NCBI GenBank assembly: GCA_024401215.1
Contig: JAKSLL010000017.1
Location: 1-55,821 of the forward strand
Length of the DNA stretch: 55,821 nt
Reading direction: 5' to 3'
Source: Bacteroidaceae bacterium
GTDB lineage: Bacteria; Bacteroidota; Bacteroidia; Bacteroidales; Bacteroidaceae
Shown here: positions 5,426-54,976 of the stretch, one piece after another
How the letters are laid out: every line of letters starts with the position of its first letter
How positions within the stretch are numbered: the stretch's first letter is position 1
The notes under the pieces: model-generated
The model's database searches: none
Told to the model about the DNA's origin: nothing
The model's input: only the letters and a program-made list of their open reading frames with translations
Position numbers and translations under genes: made by a program

Positions 5426-5428
5426 CCT

Positions 5429-5824
5429 TTATTGATGAACATGAGTATACAAATCATCTCCCCTTAAATCTTCCGCTGCCATCATGATACCAGAGTCCTC
5501 TGGAATCTCATATTTCTTGACAACATGGAGGGCTGGCTTTGCGTGACTTTTATAGTTGCTCACCTGTTCAAGAACCTTTTGGAACACCTCGTGATCCCAC
5601 TGAGGAGGATACCCTTCTTTATAAATAAGGTATGTTAATTGTGTTGCGAGCTTACTCTTCAGATTATTGTTGTTTATAAAGTTGGCATATACCGCCACAT
5701 CATCAACAAGAAGCTTTATGCAACGTTCATCAGCGTACAGATTGAATAATTGTGAATGATGCTGTTGTGGAAAAATGGGATAAAGTTTGTCTCTTACACA
5801 AAAATGTGATAATTTTACACTCAA
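5429..5824 (-). pseudogene. Possible HsdR-like C-terminal remnant
   Basis: An open frame of 131 codons whose only early start is a TTG and which has no ATG near its beginning, as expected for a fragment. The segment YKEGYPPQWDHEVFQKVLEQ resembles the helical C-terminal region of type I restriction subunit HsdR, where GYPPDKQ and VLEQA are common. No helicase or nuclease motif is present. Its place next to two type IIG tails supports a decayed restriction locus. It could instead be an unrelated small hypothetical gene. Confidence 0.35.
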
Positions 5825-6010
5825 AATGAAGATTTAAATTGTTTGATATGGAAATAATCGCCTTTACGCCTTGACGAGACAGGTATCCCTCGTTGAGGTC
5901 GTTGAGGGGGGTGGAGATAAAAGAAGCGGAAGGGTTTTAATCAGCAATGTTCATGCAGAAATTGATAATGAGGATTGATAAGTAGGTAATCGACTTTAAA
6001 TGATAAAGAA

Positions 6011-6385
6011 ATGAAAGAGGTTATAATGATATTTGTTGGTGGCGGTATAGGTAGCGTGCTTCGTTATTTATGCTCAATGCTGATTAGCAGCCACAACACC
6101 ACGGCATTCCCATGGGCAACATTCTGTGTGAATGTGGTGGGTTGTCTTCTTATTGGTTTGTTTGGCAGTTTGGCTGCAAAGACAGGTATGAGTGAACACG
6201 TCAAGCTTATGCTTACCGTGGGGGTATGCGGCGGCTTCACCACTTTCTCCACTTTTTCAAACGAGAGTTTGTCGTTGCTCCGCAATGGCAATACGCTGTT
6301 ATTCTGTTTGTATGTGGTGCTCAGTCTTGTATTTGGCATTCTTGCTGTGCTGCTGGGCAATTACTGCATAAGTCATACAAACTAA
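6011..6385 (+). CDS. crcB: CrcB/Fluc fluoride channel
   Basis: A 124-residue protein with four membrane helices, the usual length of the family. It exports fluoride through a dual-topology dimer in the inner membrane. Family motifs are clear: GGGIGSVLRY at residues 10-19, TFCVNVVGCLLIGLFGS with its key Asn around residue 40, and GVCGGFTTFSTFSNE around residues 72-86. I looked for a fluoride riboswitch in the short upstream region and saw none. Its last codons run into the interspersed repeat that separates it from the converging GH35 gene. Confidence 0.95.
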   Translation: MKEVIMIFVGGGIGSVLRYLCSMLISSHNTTAFPWATFCVNVVGCLLIGLFGSLAAKTGMSEHVKLMLTVGVCGGFTTFSTFSNESLSLLRNGNTLLFCLYVVLSLVFGILAVLLGNYCISHTN

Positions 6386-6547
6386 CATTTGTTGTGGAGT
6401 TAAAGGGAAGTTAAAGATGAGTTAAAGAGGAGTTAAAGGGACGAATGTCTGTATATGGTGTCGTCACTTTTACTCCGAGTGAAGGGAAAACTCCTCTTTA
6501 ACTCCGCTTTTACTACCCAATGCGAGCAAGTTGCAAATTTGCTTCAC
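6372..6547. repeat. Interspersed structured repeat, long copy 1
   Basis: The element fills the space between two converging genes. It has four spaced GTTAAAG units on the left, a middle GACGAATGTC, then complementary CTCCTCTTTAACTCC units and the shared tail GAGCAAGTTGCA. The arms can fold into one long hairpin. The copy at 23030-23220 has the same layout. It could serve as a transcription terminator for both neighbours. Confidence 0.65.
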
Positions 6548-8620: not shown

Positions 8621-8723
8621 AAGAAGCTGTTTGGGTTAATATGGATTGTTTCAGATGCTTCGCAAAACGCTGGCATCTGCTTGAATTATGTAATTCGATA
8701 CAAATATACACACTTTAAAAATA

Positions 8724-8761
8724 AAAAAGTCCATCTTCTGCAAAAAGAAAGATGGACTTTT
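8724..8761 (-). terminator. Intrinsic terminator of trpB2
   Basis: On the minus strand, AAAAGTCCATCTT pairs with AAGATGGACTTTT and is followed by a T-rich run. It lies about 80 bases after the trpB2 stop. Its stem reappears in the hairpin at 16405-16433. Confidence 0.85.
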
Positions 8762-8839
8762 CTATTATGTAGGTGTTCATGAATAATTATGAACATCAAT
8801 CGATGCGGAGTTCCCTCCTTATTGTCTCGTCATTACTTA

Positions 8840-39484: not shown

Positions 39485-39929
39485 TTCCTTTGTTGTATCT
39501 TATTGTTAGGAATGCCACCCCAGTGAGACAGCCAAACAGTAAAGGTTCAATAGAAGTCCACGCCAAGCTGAAGCATACGATACTGATATGTCAAATGTTG
39601 AAGCGGGTCTTGGGTGGGAGATTATGACATTATGATAAGGCGTTCAATTGGCGCTTTGTTCTTGACGGATTGAAACTTCGCAACCTTCAAATACTAGTCG
39701 GAACATTGCAACGATGGATGTCCTCGGGATGTGTTTATATGCGCATCCCTTATGTACTTATGTGGTACAATTTCTGTTTCAAGGGATTATTGTACCATAA
39801 AAAGGCGGTTCATAAGGGACATTATATTCATATCAGGCGTGGACTTTCGCGTTGCTCCGTTCAACTAGTATGGGCAATGCGAAGGCCTCAATCCGTGGAA
39901 CGAGCAACATTGAAAGTTCCACGTTTTTT
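39485..39929 (+). ncRNA. Candidate structured RNA or attenuator leader before the Hsp70/dynamin operon
   Basis: Successive pairings are seen: AAGTCCACGCC (39554-39564) with GGCGTGGACTT (39836-39846), an exact 11-bp long-range match; GGGATG with CATCCC (39726-39749); CCCTTATG with CATAAGGG (39747-39818), enclosing TGGTACAAT with ATTGTACCA; TTCGCGTTGC with GCAATGCGAA (39846-39883); then a terminator hairpin. The strand GTGGACTTTCGCGTTGCTC can also pair with GAGCAACATTGAAAGTTCCAC, which would break the terminator stem. An open frame from 39670 to 39987 has no recognisable domain and is probably chance, though a decayed gene cannot be excluded. Confidence 0.45.
39894..39929 (+). terminator. Intrinsic terminator upstream of the dynamin-like gene
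   Basis: CGTGGAAC (39894-39901) and GTTCCACG (39916-39923) form a perfect 8-bp stem followed by six T. No protein gene precedes it on this strand within 3.7 kb, so it must end an RNA or act as an attenuator. Confidence 0.8.
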
Positions 39930-40013
39930 CTTATGTACATCTATAATAAATATAATAAATATTAATGAATTTCGTCTTTGGGACTAGGATGGAAAACACA
40001 ACGGAGAAAACCT

Positions 40014-42536
40014 ATGAATAACTATGACGAGGAGAAGAAAGAGTATTCTGATAAACTACAACGACAAATAAGTACTTTAGATAATATACTTGATATAGAG
40101 AGTTGCGGTTTGATAGATTCAACTCTTAGAGACAGATTGTCCGAACTTAAAGATAAGGCAAAATTCTTAAAGAACAAACTTGATAAGAACGAATTTGAGA
40201 TTGCAATAGTCGGATTGGAGAAGGCGGGCAAGAGTACATTCGCTAACGCTTTGATGGGAAATGATATTCTTCCATCAGACGAGGCTCGCTGTACATATAC
40301 TTCTACAAGAATTTGTTCTGGAGACGATACTGCAACTGTGAAATTCTTCACAACTAACGAGTTCAATTCAAGATTCAAACAGCAGTTGAAGTCTATGAAA
40401 ATTCCAAATGCAGATTCTTACAATTATGAATCGTTGTCTCTTTTTTCGTATGGTAGTTTGTTTGACAAGTTAGATCCAGAAACAAAGCAGTTACACCAAT
40501 CATCAACCAATGAAGATGTTAGGATGTGCCTTGAATACAAGGATAATTTGAAGCAGTTTATTGGCTCTGCAGATAAACCCTTTTCCGGAGACCAGTTGGC
40601 AAGTGAGGAGTTGAAGAAATTTATTGCAAAGCCTCAGTATGCATTGGCTGTCAAAGGTATTTCCATTTATTCATCTCGTTTGGAGAATATGCCCAATGCG
40701 GTCATTTTTGATGTGCCAGGTTTTGATTCTCCAACTCAGATCCATAAAGAGCAGACTGTAGAGCAGATGCGAAATGCTGATGCAATTATTTTGATTGCTT
40801 CTGCATACAAGCCAAGTTTCACAGCCCCAATCGTAGATTTGTTCCAGAAGAATACTGATTATGATGGTATTAAGTTCGGAGCAAAGATGTTTGTTTTTGC
40901 AAACAAGGCAGATATTGCCCAGAAACTCGAAGAGAATATGGGGCATATCAAAAACGATTTGCAAAGATTCAATATTATGTCTCCTGCCAATTTTGATAGA
41001 ATTGTGTATGGTTCTGCCCAGGCATTTCTCGAGAAAGAGGGAAAGTTAGATTCTGATATTGCAAAGGATGCTTTGGTAAAGAAAGGTATAACTGATGGTA
41101 TTGATGATATCAAAAAACTCCTTGCAAACTACAATGAGACTGAGCGTTTCGAGATTCTAAAACAGCGTATCAACAAGATTCAGAATGATATCGCAGAGGA
41201 GTTCAAGAAACTTTCTGAGCAGTATTCTGATGATTCTCCAGCCTCTAATATATTTAAGGAAGGTGGTGCTCTTTTCCTTGAATTGCAGGCTAGGAATGCC
41301 AAGATTATTGAGTCGTTGGAAGAGTATCGCGGACAGATTAATGTTGACTATACTGAATCTACACCTATTTCTCAGAAGATTAAGGAGGATGTTATTGAGT
41401 CTATCAGCAAGGATAATTTCAATGTTTCTGATGACGATTACAATAAGGCAAAGTTGAAAAATCCAACTGTAGGAACAAATCTTGCCCCTGAGATGATAGA
41501 CCGTTACATTCGTGAGGCTAAAAGACAAGAGGTGTATATGAAATTCACCAAAGGCATTGTCGATTTGGCGTCTCAGAATCACAAGGAATGTGACGAAGAG
41601 ATTGTTAAAAGATTTTTGGATGCACTCGAGATTTCTCAGTCCAATTCCAATTACAACAAGATAAAGGAAAATGTAACCAAGTTTATAAACGACTCTAAAG
41701 ACGCATACGATGGCGTTGGTTATTACAGAAGCCTTATTGAGAGATTCTCAATAGACTTGTTTGATATATTGCTTCTTTATCGCTTGGGTAGTGATGACAG
41801 ATGGAACAAGTATGAGAACGACAAGAGAAACTTCCAGTCTTTGGCAATGTTCGACAACAATAGAAAGCAGGATGAGTCAATCGCAAATCAGCCTTTATAC
41901 TTTAAGTTGTTGTTCCAGGCTGAACAGATGCTTGGCAATTATAATAACAAAAACAAGATAACAAGTTTGCTTGCAGACTTGGCTCCTATTGTCCCCGATT
42001 TTATACCCGGTGGTACAGTGACAAAAATGATTGGAAAGGCCGTTCTTAACCCCAATGCCTTGAAGTCTGTGGAGAACTTTATCTCAAATAATAAGAACAG
42101 AAAGGTTAGGTACTCTGATGTTGAGAGAACTTTCAAAACCTATACAGACAAGTTACCTGATGATGGAGGCTTGAATTATGAGTCATACACTCACTATTTC
42201 GCCGATTTGCCAAAGGCAGATGAGACTATTGTCAGGGAGCAGATCGAGACGGATTTCGAGATTCTTCATTCTGTGCTTGATTCTGTATTGATAAATGCAA
42301 TCAATATAGAGAAGGCTTTCCTTGCATTGGAAGTTGGTAATATAAACAATATAATAAAAGGTATTCAGGGCAGTCGTTATAGCGAGTTTGTTCGGCAAAA
42401 CGCCTCGTTGATAAAGTCGGCAGAGTTCTCAAATCTTGAAGCAGAACAGCAGATGCGCTTGACAAGAAAGAGCATTCTCAACGAAATAAAGACGATGCTG
42501 GATGAGATGAACGATGGAAACTATGACAATAATTGA
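40014..42536 (+). CDS. Dynamin-like large GTPase
   Basis: A protein of about 840 residues. I take the ATG at 40014 (MNNYDEEKKEY); the frame runs 12 codons further to 39978 with a less likely start. A coiled-coil leads into a GTPase domain: P-loop GLEKAGKSTFANAL (about residue 67), switch motif FDVPGFDSP (about 231) and ANKAD (about 297). GLEKAGKS and DVPGF are typical of bacterial dynamin-related proteins. The rest is helical, with a short hydrophobic stretch LADLAPIVPDFIPGGTVTKM (about residue 655) that could touch membrane. It starts the first operon of the island. Membrane remodelling or sensing during stress or infection is inferred from the family. Confidence 0.8.
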   Translation: MNNYDEEKKEYSDKLQRQISTLDNILDIESCGLIDSTLRDRLSELKDKAKFLKNKLDKNEFEIAIVGLEKAGKSTFANALMGNDILPSDEARCTYTSTRICSGDDTATVKFFTTNEFNSRFKQQLKSMKIPNADSYNYESLSLFSYGSLFDKLDPETKQLHQSSTNEDVRMCLEYKDNLKQFIGSADKPFSGDQLASEELKKFIAKPQYALAVKGISIYSSRLENMPNAVIFDVPGFDSPTQIHKEQTVEQMRNADAIILIASAYKPSFTAPIVDLFQKNTDYDGIKFGAKMFVFANKADIAQKLEENMGHIKNDLQRFNIMSPANFDRIVYGSAQAFLEKEGKLDSDIAKDALVKKGITDGIDDIKKLLANYNETERFEILKQRINKIQNDIAEEFKKLSEQYSDDSPASNIFKEGGALFLELQARNAKIIESLEEYRGQINVDYTESTPISQKIKEDVIESISKDNFNVSDDDYNKAKLKNPTVGTNLAPEMIDRYIREAKRQEVYMKFTKGIVDLASQNHKECDEEIVKRFLDALEISQSNSNYNKIKENVTKFINDSKDAYDGVGYYRSLIERFSIDLFDILLLYRLGSDDRWNKYENDKRNFQSLAMFDNNRKQDESIANQPLYFKLLFQAEQMLGNYNNKNKITSLLADLAPIVPDFIPGGTVTKMIGKAVLNPNALKSVENFISNNKNRKVRYSDVERTFKTYTDKLPDDGGLNYESYTHYFADLPKADETIVREQIETDFEILHSVLDSVLINAINIEKAFLALEVGNINNIIKGIQGSRYSEFVRQNASLIKSAEFSNLEAEQQMRLTRKSILNEIKTMLDEMNDGNYDNN

Positions 42537-42587
42537 TACTTTGTTTGGCGCTTTTAATGTACTAATAGTTAATAAATTGTAATATAG

Positions 42588-45092
42588 ATGGACAGAAACA
42601 TTATAAAGGAAAAATACATATCATTGAAAGGTTTAATCGAAGGTCTTATTAAAAGAAAAAGAATTTCATTTAATGATTATTTTGTATTAGAACGAAAAAA
42701 AAACGAATTTCGTATCTCTAAGGGAGGAGACAGCAATTCAGACAAATCATTTGCAGATGAATTGAGGGGGTTCGGGGGCAGTTACAAAAATGCAGGTACT
42801 TCTTACTGGGAGAATTGGGTGTATGATTTTTATGTAGAACCCAGCTGTATTTTCAGATTGTGTTTGCTTAATAGATTGTACCCTTCTGATTTTGAAGAAA
42901 ATAACGTTAAGTGGTATAGATTTTTTGTTGATGCAGTAGATCAAAACCTCATTCTCAATGACGGTAGTGTTAATGATGCCATAAATGGTGCTATGCATAA
43001 ATTGGACGATTTACTCATTAAACACGGATTAATTAATGAAGACGTAATCAGCGCAAATAGGATAAAAGTTTTACTTAATTGTGATCATGAAAGGATAGGT
43101 ATTCCTCCATACGAAGAGAAGATGGTTACTAATCCAAATCAGGGGCATTGGGATATTACCGAGCAAATTAAGGCTAATGGTAAAACATATTACCCTCGTG
43201 ATCCTAAACTGGATATTAGGGATGGCGTTGTAGTCGGTATAGACTTTGGTACTAAAAGTACTATTGTCTATTATCAAGACGAAAACGGCATTTCGTTGCC
43301 AATGCCTGTTGGTGATGATGGAAGTTTGAATCAGAGTAGTCAGAGATATGAGAACCCTACGGTAATGTGTTTCTCTTCCTGGAAAGATTTCAAGCAGGCT
43401 TATTATGCCTCTAAAGGACGTCCAGAGACTCATTGGAATGATTTGAATGTATCACATATTGCAAAGAAAAACTACAAGGAGGCGAATAGTGATCAGTTTA
43501 ATGCTTACTTGAACGATATAAAGCAATGGGCAGGTGGTCGAGAAAGAGAGATTACAATTCAGCCTTTGCATCAAGAGGAAGATGAAGTACTGAAACCATT
43601 TCTGGAAATTGAGGAAGAAGATCTTAATCCAATCGAGTATTATGCATATCTTATTGGGGTAAATATCAATAATATGATTCATGGAATCCATTTGAATTAT
43701 TATCTTTCTTTCCCAGTTTCGTATGAGAATAAAATTAAGAATAAAGTTAGAGAGAGTTTCGAGAAGGGGCTAAAAAAATCATTGCCAACAGCTATTCTCA
43801 ATGACAAACAATTGATGAATGATTTTTATGTTAATGGTGATATTTCGGAACCATTAGCATACGCTACTTGTGTGTTGCAGAAATACAATTTCAGCAATGA
43901 AGAAGAAGGTTCAATCAATTATGCAATTTTTGATTTTGGTGGTGGAACGACTGATTTTGATTTTGGTGTTTGGAGTGTTTCTGCAAAGAGAAAGTATAAC
44001 TTCGAAATTCAGACATTTGGAGGTACTGGTCTTGCCCAAATGGGAGGTGAGAATCTATTAGAGGATTTAGCATTCGAGATTTTCCGTAATAACAAGGAGG
44101 TGCTCATAAAAACAGAGAATAATAAGACATATAAGTATCAGTTTAGAAAGGGGCCAAACTCAAAATCATTTCTTGGTGATGATATTTATGTTTCTAATCA
44201 ATCACCAGAAGCCGATAAGAATATGCATATTATGATTGAGGCTTTGAGAGATTATTGGGAAAAGTCTGAAGAGATGTTAGAGAATAGCAATGACGAAGAA
44301 GATGTTGTGTCATTCAAAGATTTACAATTTGTTGATACAAACGGAAGTTTAAAAGAAGGACTTGATATTAAAATAAAAAAGAGTGAAATTAAACAATTTT
44401 TTATAGATAATATTAGGGATGCCATTCTCAATTTCTTTTCAGCTCTTGACAAGGTTAAAGACAAATACTCTGGTAGTGACGTGAAGATTTTCCTTGCAGG
44501 TAATTCTTGTAAGTCTCCTTATGTCTCTCAATTGTTTGATGAAATAATTGATACTCGCGATGATGGAAATGAATATGAAATATTCCCTCCATTGGGCACA
44601 GAAGAGTCAATTGCGATTATTAAGAAGAGGGGAGGTGATTTGGAAGATCTTCCTACAGGAAAGACTGGTGTTGCGTATGGTTTGATAGAATGTCGTAAAG
44701 GTGGAAAAATTGATATAGGTAGAGCTGCAATACCAGAGACTCCTGTCAATGAAAACTTTGCTTATTATTTGGGTTATGAAAAAATGGGTAAGTTTATCTT
44801 GATTCCTGAAGATGGCGGATTTGGCAAACTTGAGGTAGGTACTTGGTGCGAATTTATGGAGGTAGAATCAGAGGATGATGTGGTTGAAATATATTATACA
44901 GACAAGCCTGAAGCAACATCCAATGAATTGCCTATTAAGGGCATCCGTCAAAAAACATTGAAGTTTGAAAAGGCTACAGAGGATGGTTATGTTTATATTC
45001 GTGCAATAGACCCTCATACATTAGAGTATGTTGTTTCAGATGTAATGCCAGATGAAAACTATAAGGGTAAATTATATACTCAAAAGTTTTAG
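42588..45092 (+). CDS. Divergent Hsp70 with a large N-terminal extension
   Basis: An 834-residue protein. The Hsp70/actin ATPase core starts at about residue 213: phosphate-1 motif VVGIDFGTKSTIVYY, phosphate-2 motif IFDFGGGTTDFDFGVW (about 448) and adenosine motif FLAGNSCKSPYVSQLFDEI (about 634). Before it lies a charged domain of about 210 residues that I do not recognise; it contains aromatic-rich segments such as SYWENWVYDFYVEPS. A C-terminal beta-rich region of about 120 residues replaces the normal substrate domain, and no helical lid or EEVD-like end is present. It lies 51 bases after the dynamin gene and three bases before the next, so it is within one operon. Confidence 0.82.
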   Translation: MDRNIIKEKYISLKGLIEGLIKRKRISFNDYFVLERKKNEFRISKGGDSNSDKSFADELRGFGGSYKNAGTSYWENWVYDFYVEPSCIFRLCLLNRLYPSDFEENNVKWYRFFVDAVDQNLILNDGSVNDAINGAMHKLDDLLIKHGLINEDVISANRIKVLLNCDHERIGIPPYEEKMVTNPNQGHWDITEQIKANGKTYYPRDPKLDIRDGVVVGIDFGTKSTIVYYQDENGISLPMPVGDDGSLNQSSQRYENPTVMCFSSWKDFKQAYYASKGRPETHWNDLNVSHIAKKNYKEANSDQFNAYLNDIKQWAGGREREITIQPLHQEEDEVLKPFLEIEEEDLNPIEYYAYLIGVNINNMIHGIHLNYYLSFPVSYENKIKNKVRESFEKGLKKSLPTAILNDKQLMNDFYVNGDISEPLAYATCVLQKYNFSNEEEGSINYAIFDFGGGTTDFDFGVWSVSAKRKYNFEIQTFGGTGLAQMGGENLLEDLAFEIFRNNKEVLIKTENNKTYKYQFRKGPNSKSFLGDDIYVSNQSPEADKNMHIMIEALRDYWEKSEEMLENSNDEEDVVSFKDLQFVDTNGSLKEGLDIKIKKSEIKQFFIDNIRDAILNFFSALDKVKDKYSGSDVKIFLAGNSCKSPYVSQLFDEIIDTRDDGNEYEIFPPLGTEESIAIIKKRGGDLEDLPTGKTGVAYGLIECRKGGKIDIGRAAIPETPVNENFAYYLGYEKMGKFILIPEDGGFGKLEVGTWCEFMEVESEDDVVEIYYTDKPEATSNELPIKGIRQKTLKFEKATEDGYVYIRAIDPHTLEYVVSDVMPDENYKGKLYTQKF

Positions 45093-45095
45093 TTT

Positions 45096-46079
45096 ATGAA
45101 TGACTTAATAAATATAAATTTACTTAGACAAATTCTTGGGATTGACAATTTAGTAACAAAGGATGACTTGACAAAGGCATTAGCCAATGTCAAGTCCTCT
45201 TCTGAGTGTGTTGACGAAAAATCTTCATCTGTTGAGATGCTTCAGCAACAGATAAATGACTTAAAAGCAAATATTGCTGAAGAACAAAAGAAGAATGAAG
45301 GTTTACAATCACAAGTTAACCAAAAGGAAAAAGAATGCTCGGTACTCAATTCTCAACTTTCAGAAAAGAGTGTGGATTTGGATGAAGCTAACGCTAAAAT
45401 CAATGGTTTGGAAAGGAAAGTGTCAGAATTAGAAACACAATTAGAAAACAAATCTGAAGAACTTGTTCGTGTCAATTTTGATTTTCAGCAAAAGCAATCA
45501 GAATGTTCGGTACTCAATTCTCAACTTTCAGATAAGAGTAGGGGTTTGAACGAGGCAAATGCTAAAATAAACGGTTTGAAAGGAAAGGTATCCGAATTGG
45601 AAACACAATTGGAAAACAAATCAGAAGAACTTGTTTGTGTCAATTCTGATTTACAGCAAAAGATTGAAGAGTTAAAATCTTTCGATTTTCAAGCTTTGTA
45701 TAATCAAATCTCTGATGATGAAGTTAGATATGGAGTAAGCACATATTTCAGCAAGAATGACAATAAAGCAATGGTGTATGGAGCTCTTCAGCAAACACAT
45801 TGCGAAAACTTTTACAGATTTGTAAGGAACCAAATTAAGGAAGGGAAAAAAGCTGATTTGCCTGTTTTAATGGAATTGTTGAACAAGGTATTTGACTTTT
45901 TTGTTTCATATACAGGCTATGAATTAATTGAACCGGAAATTGGAATGGAGTCCAATTCTGAACATTCGATTATCCTTTCTCGAAAGATGATAGGAGGAGT
46001 TGTAGAAGAAGTTCTTCTTTTTGGTTACAAGGACAATAATGGTAAAGTCATTCAAACAGCACTTGTTAAGGTAACATAA
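45096..46079 (+). CDS. Coiled-coil protein with a GrpE-like C-terminal end
   Basis: A 327-residue protein. Residues 45-195 are a coiled coil containing two near-identical 56-residue blocks. Residues about 195-327 form a helical then beta region. Its end, with EHSIILSRKMIGGVVEEVL then LFGYKDNNG and QTALVKV, follows the pattern of the GrpE beta domain (His-Ala/Ile, GxVxxVLxxGY, A.V.V). GrpE releases ADP from Hsp70, and this gene starts three bases after an Hsp70 gene. I therefore call it a derived GrpE-like nucleotide exchange factor; the similarity is in pattern only and needs structure comparison. Confidence 0.6.
   Translation: MNDLININLLRQILGIDNLVTKDDLTKALANVKSSSECVDEKSSSVEMLQQQINDLKANIAEEQKKNEGLQSQVNQKEKECSVLNSQLSEKSVDLDEANAKINGLERKVSELETQLENKSEELVRVNFDFQQKQSECSVLNSQLSDKSRGLNEANAKINGLKGKVSELETQLENKSEELVCVNSDLQQKIEELKSFDFQALYNQISDDEVRYGVSTYFSKNDNKAMVYGALQQTHCENFYRFVRNQIKEGKKADLPVLMELLNKVFDFFVSYTGYELIEPEIGMESNSEHSIILSRKMIGGVVEEVLLFGYKDNNGKVIQTALVKVT
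45333..45668 (+). repeat. 168-bp direct duplication inside the coiled-coil gene
   Basis: Codons 80-135 (45333-45500) and 136-191 (45501-45668) encode nearly the same 56 residues (ECSVLNSQLS..., KVSELETQLENKSEELV). The DNA copies are also very similar, so the duplication is recent. Confidence 0.85.
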
Positions 46080-46527
46080 AACCTCTCTATGCCGAGTCTA
46101 AAAAACATTTGGATTTGCAGTTATTGATACTATGAATGCTGAAAACCTGAAATAGATGTTCATTTGACAAATGAGTGAAGTGCTATATACAATATGATAG
46201 TGTCAAGTTTGTCAAAGGGCTTTATATACTCTGTAATTATTGCTTTGAAAAAACTGTTCAGCATTTCATTATGGCAATAAAGGTCGGCGTATTAAACACA
46301 GAGAACAATGTTTAGCAAATGCTAATGCTTCCGTCTTGTATAACAATACATATTGTTTGCGTTTTCCGACAAACGGGACGAAGTTTTATAATTTATGCTT
46401 CTTGTTAATTTATAATACTGTTATTTTTGTATAACAACGGGTGAGTTGTAAGACGAGATTTTCTCACCCATAGTATAAGCACATGGTTGGCGTCTGAAAA
46501 TCTAACCAATCGAAATCAACAAGTAAA
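46080..46527 (+). promoter_or_regulatory. Intergenic region with a candidate promoter for the second gene group
   Basis: No gene is seen here. TATTTTTG (46422-46429) is a -7 box with TTG 17 bases upstream. A hairpin GGGTGAG/CTCACCC (about 46440-46470) follows, without a T run, in what would be the leader. The leader would be about 90 bases. The region is AT-rich. Confidence 0.45.
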
Positions 46528-47217
46528 ATGGAAATGCCTATGTATTATAGTCCTGATATAGAATGGAGAGTTCGTAGTATTATAGTTGAAAAACTTAATG
46601 TTGACGAGGATGAAATTGAAATGAATGCGTCATTTGTAAATGATTTAGGTGCGGATTCTTTAGATGCAGTTGAGTTGATAATGGAGTTTGAAAAAGAATT
46701 TGGAATAAATATCCCTGATGAAGTTGCAGAACGTATAGTAACAGTTGGAGACGCTATCTGTTATATTGAAGATGCTGGTGGCAGTATTGTTTTTGATGAA
46801 TGCAATGAAGAAGAAACCTTCACTTATGAAAATGAAACGGAATACCTAAATGAACTCAAAGACGTCTTATCAGAAGGTGAGATTTCTCCTCGTGAACGAC
46901 GCCTTCTTGACAAAATCCGCATCCAACTCGGAATATCAGAGGAACGTGCCGCTGAATTGGAAGCCTCATTATCTACATCAGGTGTTTCTGCCGAAGAGCA
47001 GGAATATATGGATGAGCTGCAAGATATACTCAAAGGGGGAGGAATCACGCCACGTGATCAAAAATTTCTTGACAAGCTGAAGAAAGTTAATAATATCAGT
47101 GATCAGCGTGCATGTCAACTTGAACAGATGGTTGAGAACAATCTAAATCAATGCAAGGCAATGCAAGACACTCCCAACGCCTCGTATTTAAAGGGAATAA
47201 GCAGGTCTCATTCTTAA
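46528..47217 (+). CDS. Acyl-carrier-protein domain fused to two helical repeats
   Basis: A 229-residue protein. Residues about 10-82 are an acyl carrier protein: [20 protein letters not shown] with the phosphopantetheine Ser at residue 44, then [19 protein letters not shown]. Residues about 105-147 and 159-201 are two copies of a helical unit with the pattern EY..EL.D.L..G.I.PR...LDK...... ..IS..RA..LE. Such units recur in bacterial multi-domain conflict proteins, to my recollection. It is not next to fatty acid genes; it leads the second group of the island. The Ser suggests it is loaded with an acyl or other thioester group, for example to attach to a partner or to membrane. The role is unknown. 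Confidence 0.8.
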
Positions 47218-47238
47218 ATTTCGAAATTATCCAACGCT

Positions 47239-48393
47239 ATGAAAGAGAAAAAAACTTTTTGGGGACGTATTTTAGAGCACTTTGTATATACCGATGCGTA
47301 TGATAATATTTCGAAGAAACTTGACAGCATAGAAGACAGACTACATAGCATCAAAGTTTCAAATAACGAACCTCCTGTAACTATTGACCTGTCTGAAATA
47401 TGTAGAACGTCAGATGTCCGAGGACTAAAGACTGAGGTTGTTAAGAAACTGGCAGAATTACAAGTTTCGTTAGAACAGAAAATAGATGATGCCACAATAA
47501 AGATGTCACCTAATGATTCCGGTGAACCTCAGGGAGAGGGTTCACCACAGATATCATCTGACTATGTAAATAAGCTGCATCATCAGTTAGAGAGTCTTCA
47601 GGGTGATGCTTGTCTATTTCTAATGCGCAAATACGTTATAGATTCACAAATTGAGTTATACAAACGCATAGCCTATAGGCTTTGTGACTTAAAGTCTGAC
47701 CGAGAACTACAAGGGCTCATCAGTTTCTTAAAAACACAACTCTCAACAATAGGAGTACAGTACATTGAAACTCCTACGGGCAGTGAGTTTTCTGGAAAAA
47801 CGATGCAGGTGGCTTCGGGAGAGAAAAGAACTCAATTGACTAATGACAAATCTCTTGATGGGAAAGTTGCGACTACAGTTGTGCCTCGATTTATATGGAC
47901 ACTACCTACATCTCAAGGCAAATCTTCCGTTTTGCTGAGTAAGGAGGAAGTCATATTATGGGAATACACTTCTATGCAAATAGTAAGTCATCATGAAGAA
48001 AGTGTTAATATCCAACCTTCATATACAATGGGAATGTCACCACAACAGACGGCATGTCCCGTAGGAGTGACAGATATAGTAGGATATTTAACCCTTCAAA
48101 TTGATAATGAAATTGATGGTGTTTTTCCTGTTTTTAAGGGGCACAATATCTTCGGCACCCAACCTCAATCAGGAGAGCAGAACGTAAAAGTTCATCAGAT
48201 AAACATTATCAATTCAGAATTAAAGTCAATGCATTTTGAGATTAATGCAGATGGAGATTCTGTTATTACTAACGTTTGTGATGGGGCTACATGGGATGTT
48301 AACTATAGGGGCAACCATCCTCGTGAGGCAGAACTGTGCCCTGCAGATGTTATAATGATTGGTAATTTGAAATTTACATACATTGAAAAATGA
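47239..48393 (+). CDS. GrpE-like protein fused to an FHA-like domain
   Basis: A 384-residue protein. Residues about 105-245 match the GrpE plan: helices DYVNKLHHQLESLQGDACLF and LMRKYVIDSQIELYK, then LSTIGVQYIETPTGSEFSGK (compare L..GV..I...G..FDP in GrpE) and a closing beta region. Residues about 285-384 look like an FHA phosphopeptide-binding domain: VFKGHNIFGTQP, NSELKSMHFEI (S..H pattern), and PADVIMIGNLKFTYIE. The Arg usually found after the first Gly is Thr here, so phosphothreonine binding may be altered. Its stop overlaps the next start by four bases (ATGA). Confidence 0.62.
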   Translation: MKEKKTFWGRILEHFVYTDAYDNISKKLDSIEDRLHSIKVSNNEPPVTIDLSEICRTSDVRGLKTEVVKKLAELQVSLEQKIDDATIKMSPNDSGEPQGEGSPQISSDYVNKLHHQLESLQGDACLFLMRKYVIDSQIELYKRIAYRLCDLKSDRELQGLISFLKTQLSTIGVQYIETPTGSEFSGKTMQVASGEKRTQLTNDKSLDGKVATTVVPRFIWTLPTSQGKSSVLLSKEEVILWEYTSMQIVSHHEESVNIQPSYTMGMSPQQTACPVGVTDIVGYLTLQIDNEIDGVFPVFKGHNIFGTQPQSGEQNVKVHQINIINSELKSMHFEINADGDSVITNVCDGATWDVNYRGNHPREAELCPADVIMIGNLKFTYIEK

Positions 48394-49325
48394 ACAACAA
48401 TAATAAATCATCGAATATATCCGTATTACCGGCAGAGACAATTCAGAAGGTAAACGAAGATTCTTTTCCCAACAGCGTGGAGAGTACAGAATACATAGAA
48501 AGGATGCTGACACACTTTCTTGGAGATCTGTCATCTCGTATAATCACCAGCCAGCAATTGTCTACTGCTCGTCTTGATGCATTTGAAAAAAATTTCTATG
48601 ATGTATTTGATACTCTCAAACATCAAATAAATGAACAAAACAAATGTATAGATGAGTTAAGAAATAGTGTTAACGCTGTTACTGCTAATCAAAAAATACT
48701 AAATGATTGTCAGCGTGAAATATTAGAGGCTGTTAATGCTATTATCTCTTCAAACGGTAAGGAATCTAAATTGGTACCATATATTCAAAAGTTATCAGAA
48801 CATCAAGAGGCAATGGAAAAGTTGCTTCACGGAATGGAAGAGAAAACAAATGACATTCATTACAATGTGATTAATGGCTCGTCTGGTACTGATTCGCAGA
48901 ACAATAGTGATTATGTTCGTTATTTACAGGAACAGGTAGAGCGACTTCATAATGACACTTATTTGAAGTTTATGCGCAAGTATATTATTGACACATATAT
49001 TAGCCTTTATTCAAATCTGTCATATCGTAGATTTGATACTACAGTTGAGGTTTGTAAAGAAATAGAGATTACTCTTGGCAGGATGAGAACAGAGTTGGAG
49101 TCTATAGGAATACGTCTTTATAGTTCTCCCAATGGTGCCAGTTTTAATGCAAAAACCATGATAAACAAACGAGAGTGTTCTGTACATACTCCAGATGACA
49201 AACAAGATGTTAAGAACAGCATATGCAAATCTCTTCTCCCTGCTTTTTACTGGACTATACCAGTTGAAAATTCCAGTAGTAATCTCCACCTCTTGCAGAA
49301 GGAAGAGGTTGCACTATATATTTAA
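48390..49325 (+). CDS. GrpE-like protein with coiled-coil N-terminus
   Basis: A 311-residue paralogue of the preceding protein without the FHA-like domain. Residues 30-165 are helical and coiled coil. Residues 172-311 align with the upstream gene: DYVRYLQEQVERLHNDTYLK, FMRKYIIDTYISLY, then LESIGIRLYSSPNGASFNAK and the final LLPAFYWTIPVE and LLQKEEVALYI. The last part resembles the GrpE beta domain. It lies 23 bases before a dnaK-like gene, which supports a role as its exchange factor. Two paralogues in tandem suggest heterodimers, as GrpE normally acts as a dimer. Confidence 0.62.
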   Translation: MNNNNKSSNISVLPAETIQKVNEDSFPNSVESTEYIERMLTHFLGDLSSRIITSQQLSTARLDAFEKNFYDVFDTLKHQINEQNKCIDELRNSVNAVTANQKILNDCQREILEAVNAIISSNGKESKLVPYIQKLSEHQEAMEKLLHGMEEKTNDIHYNVINGSSGTDSQNNSDYVRYLQEQVERLHNDTYLKFMRKYIIDTYISLYSNLSYRRFDTTVEVCKEIEITLGRMRTELESIGIRLYSSPNGASFNAKTMINKRECSVHTPDDKQDVKNSICKSLLPAFYWTIPVENSSSNLHLLQKEEVALYI

Positions 49326-49348
49326 AAACTAATCATTTAAAACAATTT

Positions 49349-51016
49349 ATGGCTACATTTATAGGAATAGATTTGGGAACTACATATTCATGCATAGCCC
49401 AATGTGATGAAGTCGGTATTCCAACGGTAATACCTTGTCAGGCGTATTCTGTAGGAATGGCTACACCTTCTGTTATTACATTTATGGAGGACGGAAAACC
49501 TATAATAGGTGATGAAGCGAAGTCTTATATGACTACTCCAGAGTATGCAAGTCGTACATTGTCGTTTATAAAACGCTACATGGGACAAGACTATTGTCCT
49601 GAAAAGATTGTCATTGGTGGAAAAGGTTCTACCCAAAAGAGAAAAGTTTCACCCGTTGAGGGATCTGCTTGTATCTTGCATGGTTTGTTCAATGAGGCAC
49701 AAAAAAGCGTCTTTGGAAGTCAGAGCTTACAAGGTGCTGTGATTACCATACCTGCAGGATATACAGAAAAACAACGTGCCTGTGTAAAGAAAGCTGCTCA
49801 ATTAGCTGGTATAAATGTTTTAGGATTAATCCATGAGCCTACAGCTGCAGCAATCTGTCACGAAATAAAGTCAGGCGAAACAATTTTGGTGTTTGATCTT
49901 GGTGGGGGCACACTTGATGTTAGTATAGTGACAAAAAAACAGGACAACTATAAGGTTCTTGCTGTTTCGAGTGACTCTGAAATCCTTGAACATAATTTGG
50001 GTGGAAAGGATTGGGATGAAGCTTTGATGAAAATTGCTTGTCAGAAAATAGGTGGTTATAATCCTGATACAGAATACGAAAAGGGCGAATTAAAAATTGA
50101 GGCGGAGAAGTGTAAAAAGAGATTGACAAGAGCAAATGAGACTCAATTTTTCTTACCAAAGAACAAAGGCAATGTGCTAATAACACGTTCTGATTTTCAA
50201 AAAGCAACGAAGGAGCTTGTTAATCAGTGCCTAAAGGTTGTTGACGAGTGCATTGCTAGAGCTGATAGAGAAGCCTCAAATGGACAAGTGATTATAAATC
50301 GTTTCATCATGGTTGGTGGATCTTCTAATATGCCCATGATACAAAAAGCCTTAGAGCGCAAATATGGAGAAAGATTCAGTAACGGAAGAGAAACAGAAAG
50401 ATGGCTTAGCGTTTCCAACGATGCAGAAACCTCAATTTCTAAAGGAGCAGCATTATATGCACGCCATTTGATTAATAATCCAGATACGGAATCAGAAGGA
50501 GTATTGATAGAAGAACGCTCAATTCATTCCTATGGAACTTCTGTTGGAGTAGATCGTATTTGCAACTTGATAAAATCTACAGACAGTATGGTTTTTGAGA
50601 AGACTTTTTCATTTAAAACAATGGAAGACGGGCAAAAGGGCGTTCTTGTCGATTTGTTTGAGAATGAAAGCATAGAAGATGAAATCAATCGAGACGGTAA
50701 GGCCCCGATATATGATGAAAAATACATTTTTGACTGGCACGCTCCTAAAGATGCAGAGGTTGAGTTTAAGGTCAATCGTGATAGAGACGGATTGATACGT
50801 ATTACAGTATCCTCTAAATATGGACACACACAAACATTTTCACATGCTACAAGCGTTATGTCTTCATCATCATCTTCTGTTCCTTCAAACGGCAAGCAGG
50901 TTTCTCATGCAGTTAAGAATGTAATATCTGCAGAAGTAGAAAAACAAATAAGAAGATCAATAGAATTGATGCAGGAAGAAGACAAAACTGTTGATGATGA
51001 TGATGAACTTTTTTAA
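49349..51016 (+). CDS. DnaK-like Hsp70 lacking the lid
   Basis: A 555-residue Hsp70, shorter than DnaK (about 600-640). The ATPase domain is intact: GIDLGTTYSCIAQ (residue 5), LIHEPTAAAI, VFDLGGGTLDVSI (about 180) and FIMVGGSSNMPMIQKAL (about 320). A recognisable beta substrate-binding domain follows (about 395-505, SYGTSVGVDRI, FKVNRDRDGLIRITVSS). Then there is only a Ser-rich linker, one helix and an acidic DDDDELF tail, so the helical lid is missing. No DnaJ gene is present in the window. It is probably partnered by the two GrpE-like proteins before it, and the next gene begins 13 bases later. Confidence 0.9.
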   Translation: MATFIGIDLGTTYSCIAQCDEVGIPTVIPCQAYSVGMATPSVITFMEDGKPIIGDEAKSYMTTPEYASRTLSFIKRYMGQDYCPEKIVIGGKGSTQKRKVSPVEGSACILHGLFNEAQKSVFGSQSLQGAVITIPAGYTEKQRACVKKAAQLAGINVLGLIHEPTAAAICHEIKSGETILVFDLGGGTLDVSIVTKKQDNYKVLAVSSDSEILEHNLGGKDWDEALMKIACQKIGGYNPDTEYEKGELKIEAEKCKKRLTRANETQFFLPKNKGNVLITRSDFQKATKELVNQCLKVVDECIARADREASNGQVIINRFIMVGGSSNMPMIQKALERKYGERFSNGRETERWLSVSNDAETSISKGAALYARHLINNPDTESEGVLIEERSIHSYGTSVGVDRICNLIKSTDSMVFEKTFSFKTMEDGQKGVLVDLFENESIEDEINRDGKAPIYDEKYIFDWHAPKDAEVEFKVNRDRDGLIRITVSSKYGHTQTFSHATSVMSSSSSSVPSNGKQVSHAVKNVISAEVEKQIRRSIELMQEEDKTVDDDDELF

Positions 51017-51029
51017 TTAATGTATTACA

Positions 51030-53981
51030 ATGGAATATTATGAAATAACCCCATTGGACCCACGCATTCTTTCTGAATTACTTCGGAGAAAGATGCAGAA
51101 TGACTGTGAGCCGTCTATGTACGTAAGGCCACAGTCTGTAGAACTATCTATCGATGATTTCTATTTTGTAAAGATAAGGAGTATTTCATTCACTGACAAA
51201 GCTCCTCGAAAAGAGGCTGTGGAGAATATTCTGAGTACCATGCGTATTCCTAACGTAAACTTTGTGTACCTTATAAAGGGTGATGAACAGAAAGTGACAT
51301 TCTACTATGGTGTCTCACATAATTTATATACAAAAGTGAATGAAAGCCGGAATATCTCTGAGTCTGTTCTAAAGAAAGCTATAACTGGCAATTTTAGAGG
51401 AAGTGTGATTGAGGATGTCAATCGCGAAGAGAAAGAAGGCATTCTTCGTAAATTGGAAAACTATAAGTTTGTAAACACACTCGAAGGTGTACCAGGATTG
51501 AATGACGACGAATCAGAGCAATTTCAGCGTGTAGATAGATTGGTTGATACTATGCTGGGAGACGATTTTGTGTTTCTTGTTACTGCAAAGAGTATTTCAA
51601 TAGAAGGGGTTGAACAAATTGAGAAAGGGCTTTTCAGTTTTTATGATCAGTTATTACCTCACTCTAAGCGTTCTGAGCAAGTAGGTCACACTGTAGGAAC
51701 ATCTGAAAGTGAGCAATTAGGAAAAACTAAAGGAAGTTCTAAAGCCGTAGGGAATACAATACAACAATCAGAAGCTAAAACAATAAGTGAATCAGGCGAA
51801 ACGACTTCTGGACAAACTACACATACAAAAACAGAAATCCTTCCAGTAAAACAGCTGTCTGATTCTGAAAGCAAATCGACCTCTAAAAGTACAAGTTCTT
51901 CGCATTCTGATTCCATTACGAGAGAGCACTCCAATCGTGAGGTTCAAGATTGGATTAAGTATGTTGATGAAACTTTGATTAAACGACTTGATTATGGAAA
52001 GGGTAAAGGTATTTTTGTTACTGCAATAACTCTATTTGCAGATAGTCGTGTTGTCTTGCAAAAGCTTGCAAATACAGCGACATCTCTTTTTTCAGGTGAG
52101 GAAGGTAATAAAGTTCCATTGGTTAGTCGTGAGATTACAGAAAATGTACATAGGAATTTACTGCATAAACTACAAATTCCTATTATTAAGTACGAAACGG
52201 ATTTGAAAAAAGTGGACAAGGACAACAAACTTGCACATTCTCAATATACAACAACCCAAAGAGCTTATGTGGGAAGTTGGTACTCCGTCAACGAATTGGG
52301 AGTAATCACCGGCTTACCTTGCAAGGAAGTCGTAGGCTTGTCGCTAAAAGAAGAGGTGGATTTTGGCCTTAACTTCGAGATGCCTTCAGAAGACAATATG
52401 TTGTCTATCGGTTGCTTGGTTCAAAGTGGAATCAAGCATGAAAATATTCCTGTTGCCATTGATAAAAATGATTTGAACAAGCATATTTTTGTCTGTGGTG
52501 TTACAGGAAGTGGTAAGACTACGACTTGCATGAATCTGCTGGAGAATAGTCAAATGCCATTTATGGTGATCGAACCTGCAAAGACAGAATACAGAATACT
52601 CTCGAAGTATTATCCAGACTTACTTGTATTCACATTGGGCAATGATAACGTAGCTCCATTCAGACTCAATCCGTTGGAGTTTCTGCCAACAGAAAGCATA
52701 TCTTCTCACGTTGATATGCTGATGGCTAGTATAGAGGCGGCTTTTGATATGGAGGCTGCTATACCTCAGATTATAGAGAAAGGATTGTACCTGTCTTACG
52801 AGAAGTTTGGTTGGAATACTTCGACAAACTCTAATAGTAAGTTTAAAGATCCTTTTGCTGACGGTGTATTCTCTTTTCCTACATTGTCTGATCTCATAAC
52901 AAATATTGAGACTGTAGTAAAAGAACAAGGATTTGACGACAGACTAAAGAATGACTATCTTGGTAGCATCCGTGCTCGCTTGATGGGTTTGACTGTTGGT
53001 TCAAAGGGTGCCATGCTTAACACCAAACGTTCCATAAGTGTCAATGATTTGATACATCGTAGGGTTGTATTGGAATTGGAAGAAGTTAAGAGCGGAAGGG
53101 AGAAGTCATTGGTCATGGGTTTCGTCCTTTCAAACTTATGTGAATCAATCAAGGCTGAATACAAAAAGAATCGCAGCTTTAAGCATATCACGTTAGTAGA
53201 GGAAGCGCATCGACTGTTGTCAAAATACACTCCTGGCGACTCGTTGTCTAAGAAAAACGGAGTTGAGACATTTGCAGATATGCTGGCAGAGGTTCGCAAA
53301 TATGGTGAAAGTTTGATTATTGCTGATCAGATACCAAACAAGATGACTCCTGATGTCTTGAAGAATACAAACACTAAGATTGTTCATAAAATCTTTGCTC
53401 AGGACGATAAAGAAGCCATCGGAGATTGTATGTCATTGACAAAGGAGCAAAAGAGTTTCCTTTCAAATCTTGAAGTTGGTCGTGCAGTCGTATTTAATCA
53501 GAACTGGGATCGTAGCATACTCGTCCAAATAAAACAAGGCAGGAATACTTCTGATGAATACATAGAGGAAGAAGAACTGACACAGAAAGTGTTGGGATAC
53601 TATGCTCAGAATTATCGTTTAGGGGTAATTCCTGGATTAACGTATATAAGTGGGATACCCACTATTGATGTTGTAAAGTTGGTAATTCGGGAAGAGATCT
53701 CTCCAAATGATATTTATAAATTGTTGAATTCAAAGTCTGGTGATATTCCTGATAGAATTAAAGCGTTAAAAGTAGAAATAGAGACTCTTAAACAGAGGGA
53801 AAAAAGCGTGAACTTAGAGATTTTGGCTTCATACTATAACATCAGGTGTTATAGAGAACCAAATGACAAGTCGGCAAGAATGTTGAAAGAATTGTTAAGT
53901 GAGATTTATAATGATAATGTCGCTTCAAATTTCAGAGTAAAATACAATGTTCTATTTGAAAAAAACAAAAATAAGTTTTAA
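51030..53981 (+). CDS. HerA/FtsK-class ATPase (DUF87-like)
   Basis: A 983-residue protein. The N-terminal 200 residues are mixed alpha/beta and unrecognised. Residues about 215-305 are a Ser/Thr/Gln-rich low-complexity linker. The ATPase follows: Walker A FVCGVTGSGKTTTCMNLL (about residue 490), IEPAKTEYRIL, Walker B ITLVEEAHRLLSK (about 720), and IIADQIPNKMTPDVLKNTN typical of HerA/VirB4-like hexameric pumps. Residues after 900 are helical. Such enzymes move DNA or protein; HerA-type ATPases are frequent in defence loci. It may be the motor of the system. Confidence 0.82.
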   Translation: MEYYEITPLDPRILSELLRRKMQNDCEPSMYVRPQSVELSIDDFYFVKIRSISFTDKAPRKEAVENILSTMRIPNVNFVYLIKGDEQKVTFYYGVSHNLYTKVNESRNISESVLKKAITGNFRGSVIEDVNREEKEGILRKLENYKFVNTLEGVPGLNDDESEQFQRVDRLVDTMLGDDFVFLVTAKSISIEGVEQIEKGLFSFYDQLLPHSKRSEQVGHTVGTSESEQLGKTKGSSKAVGNTIQQSEAKTISESGETTSGQTTHTKTEILPVKQLSDSESKSTSKSTSSSHSDSITREHSNREVQDWIKYVDETLIKRLDYGKGKGIFVTAITLFADSRVVLQKLANTATSLFSGEEGNKVPLVSREITENVHRNLLHKLQIPIIKYETDLKKVDKDNKLAHSQYTTTQRAYVGSWYSVNELGVITGLPCKEVVGLSLKEEVDFGLNFEMPSEDNMLSIGCLVQSGIKHENIPVAIDKNDLNKHIFVCGVTGSGKTTTCMNLLENSQMPFMVIEPAKTEYRILSKYYPDLLVFTLGNDNVAPFRLNPLEFLPTESISSHVDMLMASIEAAFDMEAAIPQIIEKGLYLSYEKFGWNTSTNSNSKFKDPFADGVFSFPTLSDLITNIETVVKEQGFDDRLKNDYLGSIRARLMGLTVGSKGAMLNTKRSISVNDLIHRRVVLELEEVKSGREKSLVMGFVLSNLCESIKAEYKKNRSFKHITLVEEAHRLLSKYTPGDSLSKKNGVETFADMLAEVRKYGESLIIADQIPNKMTPDVLKNTNTKIVHKIFAQDDKEAIGDCMSLTKEQKSFLSNLEVGRAVVFNQNWDRSILVQIKQGRNTSDEYIEEEELTQKVLGYYAQNYRLGVIPGLTYISGIPTIDVVKLVIREEISPNDIYKLLNSKSGDIPDRIKALKVEIETLKQREKSVNLEILASYYNIRCYREPNDKSARMLKELLSEIYNDNVASNFRVKYNVLFEKNKNKF

Positions 53982-54016
53982 TTTATATATTTATTAATCT
54001 TTTAATTTGTGTGTTT

Positions 54017-54925
54017 ATGGGATTTTTTAGTGCTATTGGTGGTTTTCTGTCTGGTGTAGGCAGTGCTATTTCATCTGCAGTAAGTGCTGTAGGACGTTGC
54101 TTGACAGAAGGTTGTGCTCGATTAGCTAACGGATTGGGAAGCCTGTTGAAAATAGGATTGGAGAGAGCTGTTCAAGTAGTTGCTACTATTGCAGAAGTGA
54201 TCAAATCTGTTGCAGTTTTAATTTTGAATCGTCCAGTTGACGATCCTGAACAATTGGGAGCGAAGATGATGCAACAAGATGTTCGTGAACGAAGGAGCGA
54301 TGAGTCAATGGCTGAATATCTCGATTATCTTCGTGAACAAGTAAAACTTGACAAAGATAAATTCGAGAAAATGTCTGATCAGGAAAAATTGGCTTGCAAG
54401 GTAGTAGGTACTTCTGCTATTGCAACAGCTGTCTCTGAAGAATCTGGTGTTTCATTCTCGCCAGAGTTCCTCCTTGCTATCGAAAAATGCAAATTGACAG
54501 ATAAACAAGTGGCTGGTTATATCAATCATTTCAAGGAGAATAATCTTGATTCTATGAACAAGGTGGTTGAGTACTTAGAAGATGCCCCAACATTATCAGA
54601 CGATGAGAGATTGACAGTTCAAGGTGCATTGAGAGAGGCGGAATTGGAGATAAATCCTGATATGACAGAAGACCAATTCTATGATATGACAGATAATATG
54701 AAGGAGCTAATTAAAGCACCAATCGAAGAGAACGCAGTCGAAGATAGTTTCAATGAAAGTGAAACAGTGGAGGGCGATTCATTTGAGTTTAAAGACAACA
54801 TAGAAGACAATTCAATAGAATTGGAAACAAACGAGATGTCATTAGAAGAATCAGTTGGTTCGGCTGATTCTAATCTCGAAAATGAAGTTTCAGAACTGAA
54901 TGAAGAAGATAAGACGGAAAAATAA
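54017..54925 (+). CDS. Protein with glycine/alanine-rich amphipathic N-terminus and acidic tail
   Basis: I choose the ATG at 54017 over the in-frame GTG at 54011. The 302-residue protein begins GFFSAIGGFLSGVGSAISS, then more small-residue and hydrophobic sequence to about residue 70 (VQVVATIAEVIKSVAVLIL). This resembles pore-forming peptides or membrane-inserting hairpins, and there is no normal signal peptide. The middle (about 85-210) is helical, with a repetitive pattern; the last 85 residues are very acidic and look disordered. I do not recognise a family. As last gene of the operon after an ATPase, it could be a membrane effector or an anchor; a strong terminator follows. Confidence 0.6.
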   Translation: MGFFSAIGGFLSGVGSAISSAVSAVGRCLTEGCARLANGLGSLLKIGLERAVQVVATIAEVIKSVAVLILNRPVDDPEQLGAKMMQQDVRERRSDESMAEYLDYLREQVKLDKDKFEKMSDQEKLACKVVGTSAIATAVSEESGVSFSPEFLLAIEKCKLTDKQVAGYINHFKENNLDSMNKVVEYLEDAPTLSDDERLTVQGALREAELEINPDMTEDQFYDMTDNMKELIKAPIEENAVEDSFNESETVEGDSFEFKDNIEDNSIELETNEMSLEESVGSADSNLENEVSELNEEDKTEK

Positions 54926-54934: not shown

Positions 54935-54976
54935 ATAGGCGTTTAGTAAACACTAAGCGCCTATTCTTGCTTTTTT
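54935..54976 (+). terminator. Intrinsic terminator of the island
   Basis: ATAGGCGTTTAGT (54935-54947) and ACTAAGCGCCTAT (54952-54964) form a 13-bp stem with one G-U pair, followed by a T run at 54971-54976. Confidence 0.88.

Follow-up and report, generated by a model that had tools for sequence, protein, structure and literature searches.

HerA motors are known from several defence settings, usually together with nucleases. Extended type III-A CoCoNuT operons combine an EccE3-HerA motor with a small helical protein (PMC11090510), GTPase-centred conflict systems join a GTPase to HSP70 and GrpE, a theme reported mainly from actinobacteria and firmicutes (PMC7159879), and polymorphic toxins with FtsK/HerA secretion (PMC3482391) and HerA-centred capture systems (PMC12839542) are likewise on record. 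We analysed a stretch of 55,821 nucleotides from a Bacteroidaceae bacterium (contig JAKSLL010000017.1 of assembly GCA_024401215.1), here called the window, in which nine genes, P0001 to P0009, encode a dynamin-like GTPase, two Hsp70-type proteins, one supported and two putative GrpE-like factors, an acyl carrier protein, a HerA-family motor and a glycine-rich helical protein. Four of them, encoding the HerA motor P0008 together with P0002, P0003 and P0009, form a core of which all or some members are found again in two Clostridia assemblies and on plasmids of Acinetobacter and Helicobacter. Our preferred reading, held at a little under even confidence, is that the block is a horizontally acquired, chaperone- and dynamin-coupled HerA machine that would deploy P0009 as an effector. 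A first-pass annotation of this DNA knew of no described system with exactly these genes, and this held in the open literature (subscription journals and preprints being outside the coverage), where we found no description of Hsp70, dynamin and HerA as one system.

Eleos, the LeoA/LeoBC dynamin-pair system, shares a dynamin with the window, and P0001 matches the LeoBC model of PADLOC (1.5e-4, residues 9-84), but the window has one dynamin instead of the LeoA/LeoBC pair, and many further genes. GTPase-centred systems resemble it in the combination of GTPase, HSP70 and GrpE, in some cases with a second Hsp70-domain protein (PMC7159879); the window, however, has a dynamin in place of the DO-GTPase, and a HerA core in addition. 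Type III-A CoCoNuTs and the window have in common a HerA/FtsK-type motor, with an insert that varies in length, and a small helical protein next to it (PMC11090510). In contrast to those operons, Pfam found no VWA, kinase, McrB or DUF2357 domain among P0001-P0009, and thus no McrB-like GTPase with DUF2357; P0002/P0003, dynamin, DnaK and the acyl carrier protein stand in their place.

The nine genes had been proposed to form one system. The full set was absent from every locus examined (individual neighbourhood loci carry the labels L002, L003 and so on), but it is not a chance assembly, as the core recurs in unrelated bacteria and plasmids. In one Clostridia assembly (L003), the P0003, P0008, P0009 and P0002 types are represented by consecutive genes, the last of them interrupted by a transposase; the second assembly has the P0008, P0009 and P0002 types together on L002, which is a short contig, and P0003 and P0002 types on another, L042. 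An Acinetobacter plasmid carries all four core types between a WYL regulator and an integrase; the P0002 type is present there twice, and a HEPN-like protein and a short dynamin are encoded as well. P0003 was linked to proteins of L003, L042 and L025 by position and alignment (18-19% identity), not by a BLAST match. On the Helicobacter plasmid, where no P0008 match was seen, a P0003/P0002 pair is accompanied by a WXG100-like protein (24.0 bits, below the cut-off of 27.3), a WHH nuclease, a SUKH gene and an FtsK-type ATPase. Since the pair is found with an FtsK set there and with HerA elsewhere, it seems to go with either of two motor/cargo sets. In L003 a further HerA system stands back to back with the core operon: at 1595-8839, in divergent orientation, lie genes for a dynamin, another HerA-type protein, a WHH/colicin-type nuclease and SUKH.

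Members of the P0002 family are rare, occurring in the own genome only among 301 family genomes and among 345 phylum genomes (E 1e-10), and in the centre genome only among 391 genomes of the class of one Clostridia assembly (E 1e-20). Plasmids yielded two records, and again two with another family member as the query, while phages and viral contigs yielded none. On plasmids, P0009 matched the Acinetobacter record alone, and P0005 matched nothing.

The motor, P0008 (51030..53981, plus strand), carries a Ser/Thr-rich insert and was assigned to the HerA superfamily by Pfam (DUF87, 6.2e-6, above cut-off), PADLOC (HerA, 2.1e-18) and its relatives in L002, L003, L025 and L026 (41-56% identity over 573-677 residues). 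It is probably a motor of the EccE3-HerA kind known from CoCoNuT operons (PMC11090510). Besides the HerA models, the PADLOC model mad8 matched it at 3.9e-21; nothing on MADS was found in the open literature.

P0002 (42588..45092, plus strand), an ATPase of 834 aa with an Hsp70/actin fold, had no Pfam match and was classified through its relatives in L002, L003, L024 and L025 (28-40% identity) and through the family profile, which finds DnaK structures at 9.5e-5 over one stretch. The phosphate motifs of the Hsp70/actin ATPase core are present: DFGGGTTDFD is invariant in six alignment rows and DFGT in the five rows that cover that site. With a canonical substrate-binding domain as the feature under test, the best profile matches were confined to the nucleotide-binding part. 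For P0007, Pfam gives HSP70 at 4.2e-64; the labels of dynamin, acyl carrier protein, DnaK-type Hsp70 and HerA in the first-pass annotation were confirmed by Pfam, NCBIfam or PADLOC.

P0003 (45096..46079, plus strand) consists of a coiled coil followed by a GrpE-like C-terminal head. Compared by hhalign with 13 GrpE sequences (of 14 fetched), it gave a probability of 91.8 and an E value of 7.3e-7; without the coiled coil the score was 32.9 (probability 64), and 60 column shuffles reached at most 16.8. The Pfam GrpE model had no match on the contig of the window at E up to 10, and the single, weak NCBIfam GrpE match (18.4 bits, cut-off 184) falls inside the coiled coil, a part that also contains a 168-bp tandem duplication, 83% identical (45316-45651). 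Three GrpE-like factors had been proposed; P0003 stands by profile comparison, whereas the paralogues P0005 and P0006 give no more than a weak signal.

The last core gene encodes P0009 (54017..54925, plus strand), a glycine-rich helical protein recognized through its relatives in L002, L003, L025 and L026 (E 1e-16 to 6e-5); a start at ATG 54017 fits these relatives better than one at GTG 54011. Its N-terminus is a Gly/Ala/Ser-rich amphipathic stretch (0.49 of the first 45 residues are Gly, Ala or Ser), and this is the only part shared with a 78-aa protein of L025 (matched by 0 of 500 shuffles, against 467 of 500 for the rest).

One of these relatives bears on anti-phage defence, the alternative in which invading DNA would be moved or captured by HerA, dynamin and Hsp70 would be sensors of membrane or protein damage, and the infected cell would be killed by P0009. 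On a Photobacterium plasmid (L026), a HerA 48% identical to P0008 over 573 residues adjoins a P0009 relative (E 5.7e-5), thus a HerA with a helical neighbour as in CoCoNuTs, and both sit in an operon with VWA, PP2C, kinase, AAA_11/12 and DUF2357 genes, much like CoCoNuT restriction systems (PMC11090510). We infer that L026 is a variant of those authors' CoCoNuT; the P0002 family had no match on the plasmid at E 1e-5. Related operons on plasmids of Acinetobacter, Lactococcus and Treponema are preceded by regulators with a WYL domain, which as a class are linked to defence loci. Furthermore, a dynamin confers phage resistance in Bacillus subtilis (PMC8844932). The WYL regulators, the Photobacterium locus and the dynamin favour phage defence. 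The mad8 and HerA matches of P0008 point the same way, but they are matches to single PADLOC protein models only. As no nuclease was recognized in the window, and as the immunity genes beside the relatives' nucleases (below) suit toxins better, we regard this alternative as possible but rather doubtful.

The wider HerA family shows a regularity in what stands upstream of the motor. P0008 matched 35 of 301 family genomes at E 1e-3. Apart from the own genome, 22 of these had a best E below 1e-28, and the neighbourhood was inspected in every one of the 22; the other 12 matched more weakly. Within two genes upstream of HerA, an Hsp70-like gene was found in 15 of the 22 loci (14 by motif, L090 by Pfam) and a dynamin-like gene in five; two loci (L099, L102) had neither and none had both, while the window has both. 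An Hsp70-like or dynamin-like partner thus stands beside HerA in 20 of the 22 loci, a count taken without a background rate as control. The calls are motif-based; in Pfam, the dynamins of L082 and L088 and the HSP70 of L090 were confirmed, and L069, L084 and L091 gave no HSP70 match. As a group, the Hsp70-like partners resemble the P0002 family (hhalign score 42.3, probability 28; 25 shuffles at most 21.1). Two further Hsp70-HerA operons with an HExxH product are on contigs filed as viral (L103, L104).

Some candidate relationships among these partners were discarded. A C-terminal domain common to the Hsp70-type and dynamin-type partners, raised by one PADLOC match (L069 to LeoBC, 1.4e-8), was dropped, since the profile comparison scored 16.7 against shuffles of up to 22.0 and a reversed control of 18.0. 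A gene of about 320 aa before the Hsp70-like gene was considered as GrpE-like, but its score against GrpE was within the shuffles, and a faint match to the P0005/P0006 family (19.5 versus 16.4, probability 1) was left aside.

Downstream of HerA, the position that P0009 has in the window is commonly taken by toxin-like products. Within two genes, an HExxH product is encoded in 12 of the 22 loci (L069, L083-L087, L089-L093, L101), that of L087 also having a WHH nuclease domain, and nuclease-like products without HExxH in three more (L082, WHH/colicin DNase; L096, AHH, 9.9e-12; L088, an HH motif only, with no Pfam match). HExxH is a short pattern, and of seven HExxH products without WHH given to Pfam only the near-identical L086 and L093 pass a peptidase-like cut-off. 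Pfam-confirmed SUKH immunity genes come after the WHH nucleases in L082, L024, L003, L030 and L031, and in the Lactococcus locus the next gene is DUF6985. A common N-terminus unites the dynamin-type products of L082, L088 and L096 (0 of 500 shuffles for every one of the three pairs), while the C-terminal parts are unlike in two of these pairs, as is seen in polymorphic toxins. A match between the HExxH group and the nuclease group (probability 77) mixes unlike sequences and was not used.

The SUKH genes beside the relatives' nucleases point at least as much to toxin deployment as to anti-phage action, and, together with the WXG100-like module on the Helicobacter plasmid, they favour export or injection. 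The resemblance to type VII secretion (FtsK-type ATPase, WXG100) and polymorphic toxins includes an FtsK/HerA-class motor with a small helical partner (PMC3482391), nucleases with SUKH immunity among the relatives, and, in Helicobacter, a WXG100-like protein and FtsK beside the P0002/P0003 pair; the window differs in that no WXG100 or toxin domain was found in it and in that P0008 is of the HerA class. The same slot bears on a further alternative, a module for conjugation, DNA transfer or stress that would have no part in conflict. HerA/FtsK/VirB4 motors do serve DNA transfer, and the CoCoNuT authors name mobilization as an option for their HerA (PMC11090510), but with no relaxase or transfer-channel protein among the nine by Pfam, with relatives that encode nucleases and HExxH proteins in the slot behind HerA, and with the P0002 family confined to its own genome in both the family and the phylum sets, we judge such a module very improbable.

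The remaining genes begin with P0001 (40014..42536, plus strand), a dynamin-like GTPase of 840 aa (Pfam Dynamin_N, 4.9e-16). P0004 (46528..47217, plus strand) is an acyl carrier protein (NCBIfam NF002151, 115 bits, cut-off 92; DSL motif kept) fused to two short repeats, TerB-like by a weak match (Pfam TerB, E 0.028, below cut-off), and PADLOC matches it to PDC-S48 at 3.3e-8. P0005 (47239..48393) and P0006 (48390..49325), both on the plus strand and 34% identical, are putative GrpE-like factors, P0005 with an extra C-terminal domain that is 30% identical over 123 residues to a protein of L039. The profile of this family scored 21.1 against the GrpE core, versus at most 17.0 in 60 shuffles, though with a probability of 3.8, a weak signal, and its comparison with solved structures found no GrpE. 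An FHA domain seen by eye in P0005 was rejected, having no Pfam support. P0007 (49349..51016, plus strand) is the DnaK-type Hsp70.

P0005-P0007-like genes occur in 3 of 201 family genomes, own genome included. In L038 and L039, DnaK is found with P0005/P0006-type genes and without a HerA match in 18-19 kb; conversely, the HerA/P0002 core lacks matches to DnaK or P0005/P0006 in L003 and L025 (L002 and L042 are too short to tell). Because each set occurs without the other, we read the window as a likely merger of two chaperone modules around one motor. The same loci, and the 448-bp gap at 46080-46527, would also fit two independent systems lying side by side, HerA/P0002/P0003/P0009 and DnaK/GrpE-like/acyl carrier protein, without joint function. 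However, P0004-P0007 run into HerA with gaps of -4 to 23 bp, and their place inside the core would mean that one system is split by the other; moreover, in L091, an Hsp70-HerA operon, the fourth gene downstream of HerA encodes a protein 42% identical to P0004, so that we consider independence unlikely. In L038 and L039, the DnaK/GrpE-like modules come with AAA+, zinc-ribbon or coiled-coil proteins and radical SAM genes, and their variable neighbours include FGE-sulfatase and glycine-rich membrane-like proteins; these modules are possibly another conflict system.

The nine long open reading frames all lie on the plus strand between 40014 and 54925, each with one stop, at its end, and are thus intact. 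They are separated by -4 to 51 bp, with the sole exception of the 448 bp between P0003 and P0004, and are AT-rich (guanine-cytosine content 0.367, versus 0.452 in 1-38280), so that the tightly packed, co-directional, AT-rich block previously described is real. The gap makes two transcription units possible: it contains a candidate second promoter, a sigma70-like site with 11 of 12 positions matching (46164-46193; fold z-score of the gap -0.91), promoter-like sites as a class not being enriched in the region (60 versus 57.4 in shuffles). Directly after P0009 there is a terminator-like hairpin of 13 pairs with a T-rich tail on the plus strand (54935-54964), again of a class that is not enriched (7 versus 7.7 in shuffles). 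Beyond it, at the right end, lies a transposase, which, like the structured non-coding block at the left, had been correctly noted. The restriction remnants reported far to the left were, however, not seen in a Pfam scan of 10 of the 30 open reading frames of at least 150 aa overlapping 1-37000, which gave a dehydrogenase, a dockerin protein, GH35, PALP, a TPR protein, a sugar transporter, YfhO and an Ldh-type enzyme, with two lacking a match. The assembly comprises 234 contigs with an estimated contamination of 7.04%; one same-genus genome has a gene 64% identical to a flanking peptidase gene, and 11 others of the genus that were compared gave weak matches only, which makes the origin of the contig likely, not certain.

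The structured stretch (39505..40013, plus strand) abuts the start of P0001 and is probably a 5′ leader; its fold z-score is -5.55, and none of 100 shuffles was equally stable. An element of about 430 nt within it has matches in 25 of 45 genomes of the genus, own genome included, with three further places in the own genome. Of 15 regions fetched, 13 were examined and 12 matched locally; the genes behind the copies include tubulin-like, AAA, dynamin, HerA-Hsp70, NusG-like and carboxypeptidase-regulatory-type genes. Ten aligned copies have 60 predicted pairs, 18 of them with changes on both sides (a count without shuffle control), and an Rfam search gave no match worth the name. The element is possibly an unrecognized regulatory RNA of accessory operons. 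About 790 bp behind another copy in the own genome (L076, G000:C152:13640-20672) there are three dynamin-like genes in a row, the first called by Pfam and the other two by eye.

Several observations weigh against an effector-deploying machine. The partner rule is drawn from distant relatives, whose HerA is 27-32% identical to P0008, and downstream of HerA 7 of the 22 loci showed neither an HExxH nor a nuclease-like product (L095, L098 and L100 have other products, one group being radical SAM-like by eye; L094 is unresolved, L097 is at a contig end, and L099 and L102 lack motifs). The N-terminus is not clearly shared by the dynamin-type products of L083 and L087. P0009 has no Pfam match worth the name, belongs to no described family and resembles no solved structure (best E 0.5); the profile of the HExxH group gives little support for kinship with it (score 25.2, probability 3.7, shuffles up to 19.5), and that of the other downstream group falls within the shuffles. 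Pfam recognized in the window neither a toxin nor an immunity gene, the two parts that define a polymorphic toxin system and that relatives do have. The predicted structures of P0008 and P0006 (predicted local distance difference test 42.3, as a mean, and 41.5) are too poor for use, and, as the contig stops after the transposase, genes are possibly missing.

We nevertheless prefer the chaperone- and dynamin-coupled HerA machine. From core recurrence, the partner rule, the content of the downstream slot and the GrpE-like end of P0003, all read directly from sequence, gene anatomy suggests gating, translocation, membrane action and a joint function of both layers. P0008 would be a HerA-type ring motor, probably of the EccE3-HerA kind, that moves or assembles P0009. 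P0002 would work with P0003, its own GrpE-like exchange factor, and prime or gate the motor or its cargo; the dynamin P0001 would act at the membrane and perhaps help P0002/P0003 to set the timing of P0008. P0009 may be the cargo or a membrane effector, because it is encoded just behind HerA, in the slot of nucleases and HExxH products in relatives, and has an amphipathic, Gly/Ala/Ser-rich start. P0004-P0007 would form a second, separately occurring chaperone layer joined to the core. That the chaperones hold an effector inactive, as first proposed, we likewise infer. Deployment of the effector in conflict is likely, delivery to other cells being somewhat likelier than action in the own cell.

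More tentatively, and as a proposal we would not yet call probable, these loci may belong to an unrecognized, multi-phylum class of conflict machines in which the gate of a HerA ring motor is either an Hsp70-type chaperone, here with a GrpE-like factor of its own, or a dynamin, and the effectors that the ring deploys are exchangeable (nucleases, HExxH proteins or membrane-active proteins), the window being a composite with both gates and two chaperone layers. The repeated pairing of HerA with Hsp70-like or dynamin-like ATPases, and often with a toxin-like downstream slot, suggests a shared principle, in which a chaperone or membrane NTPase decides when the ring motor releases a harmful protein. 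If true, this would connect phage defence and toxin deployment with each other and with protein quality control.

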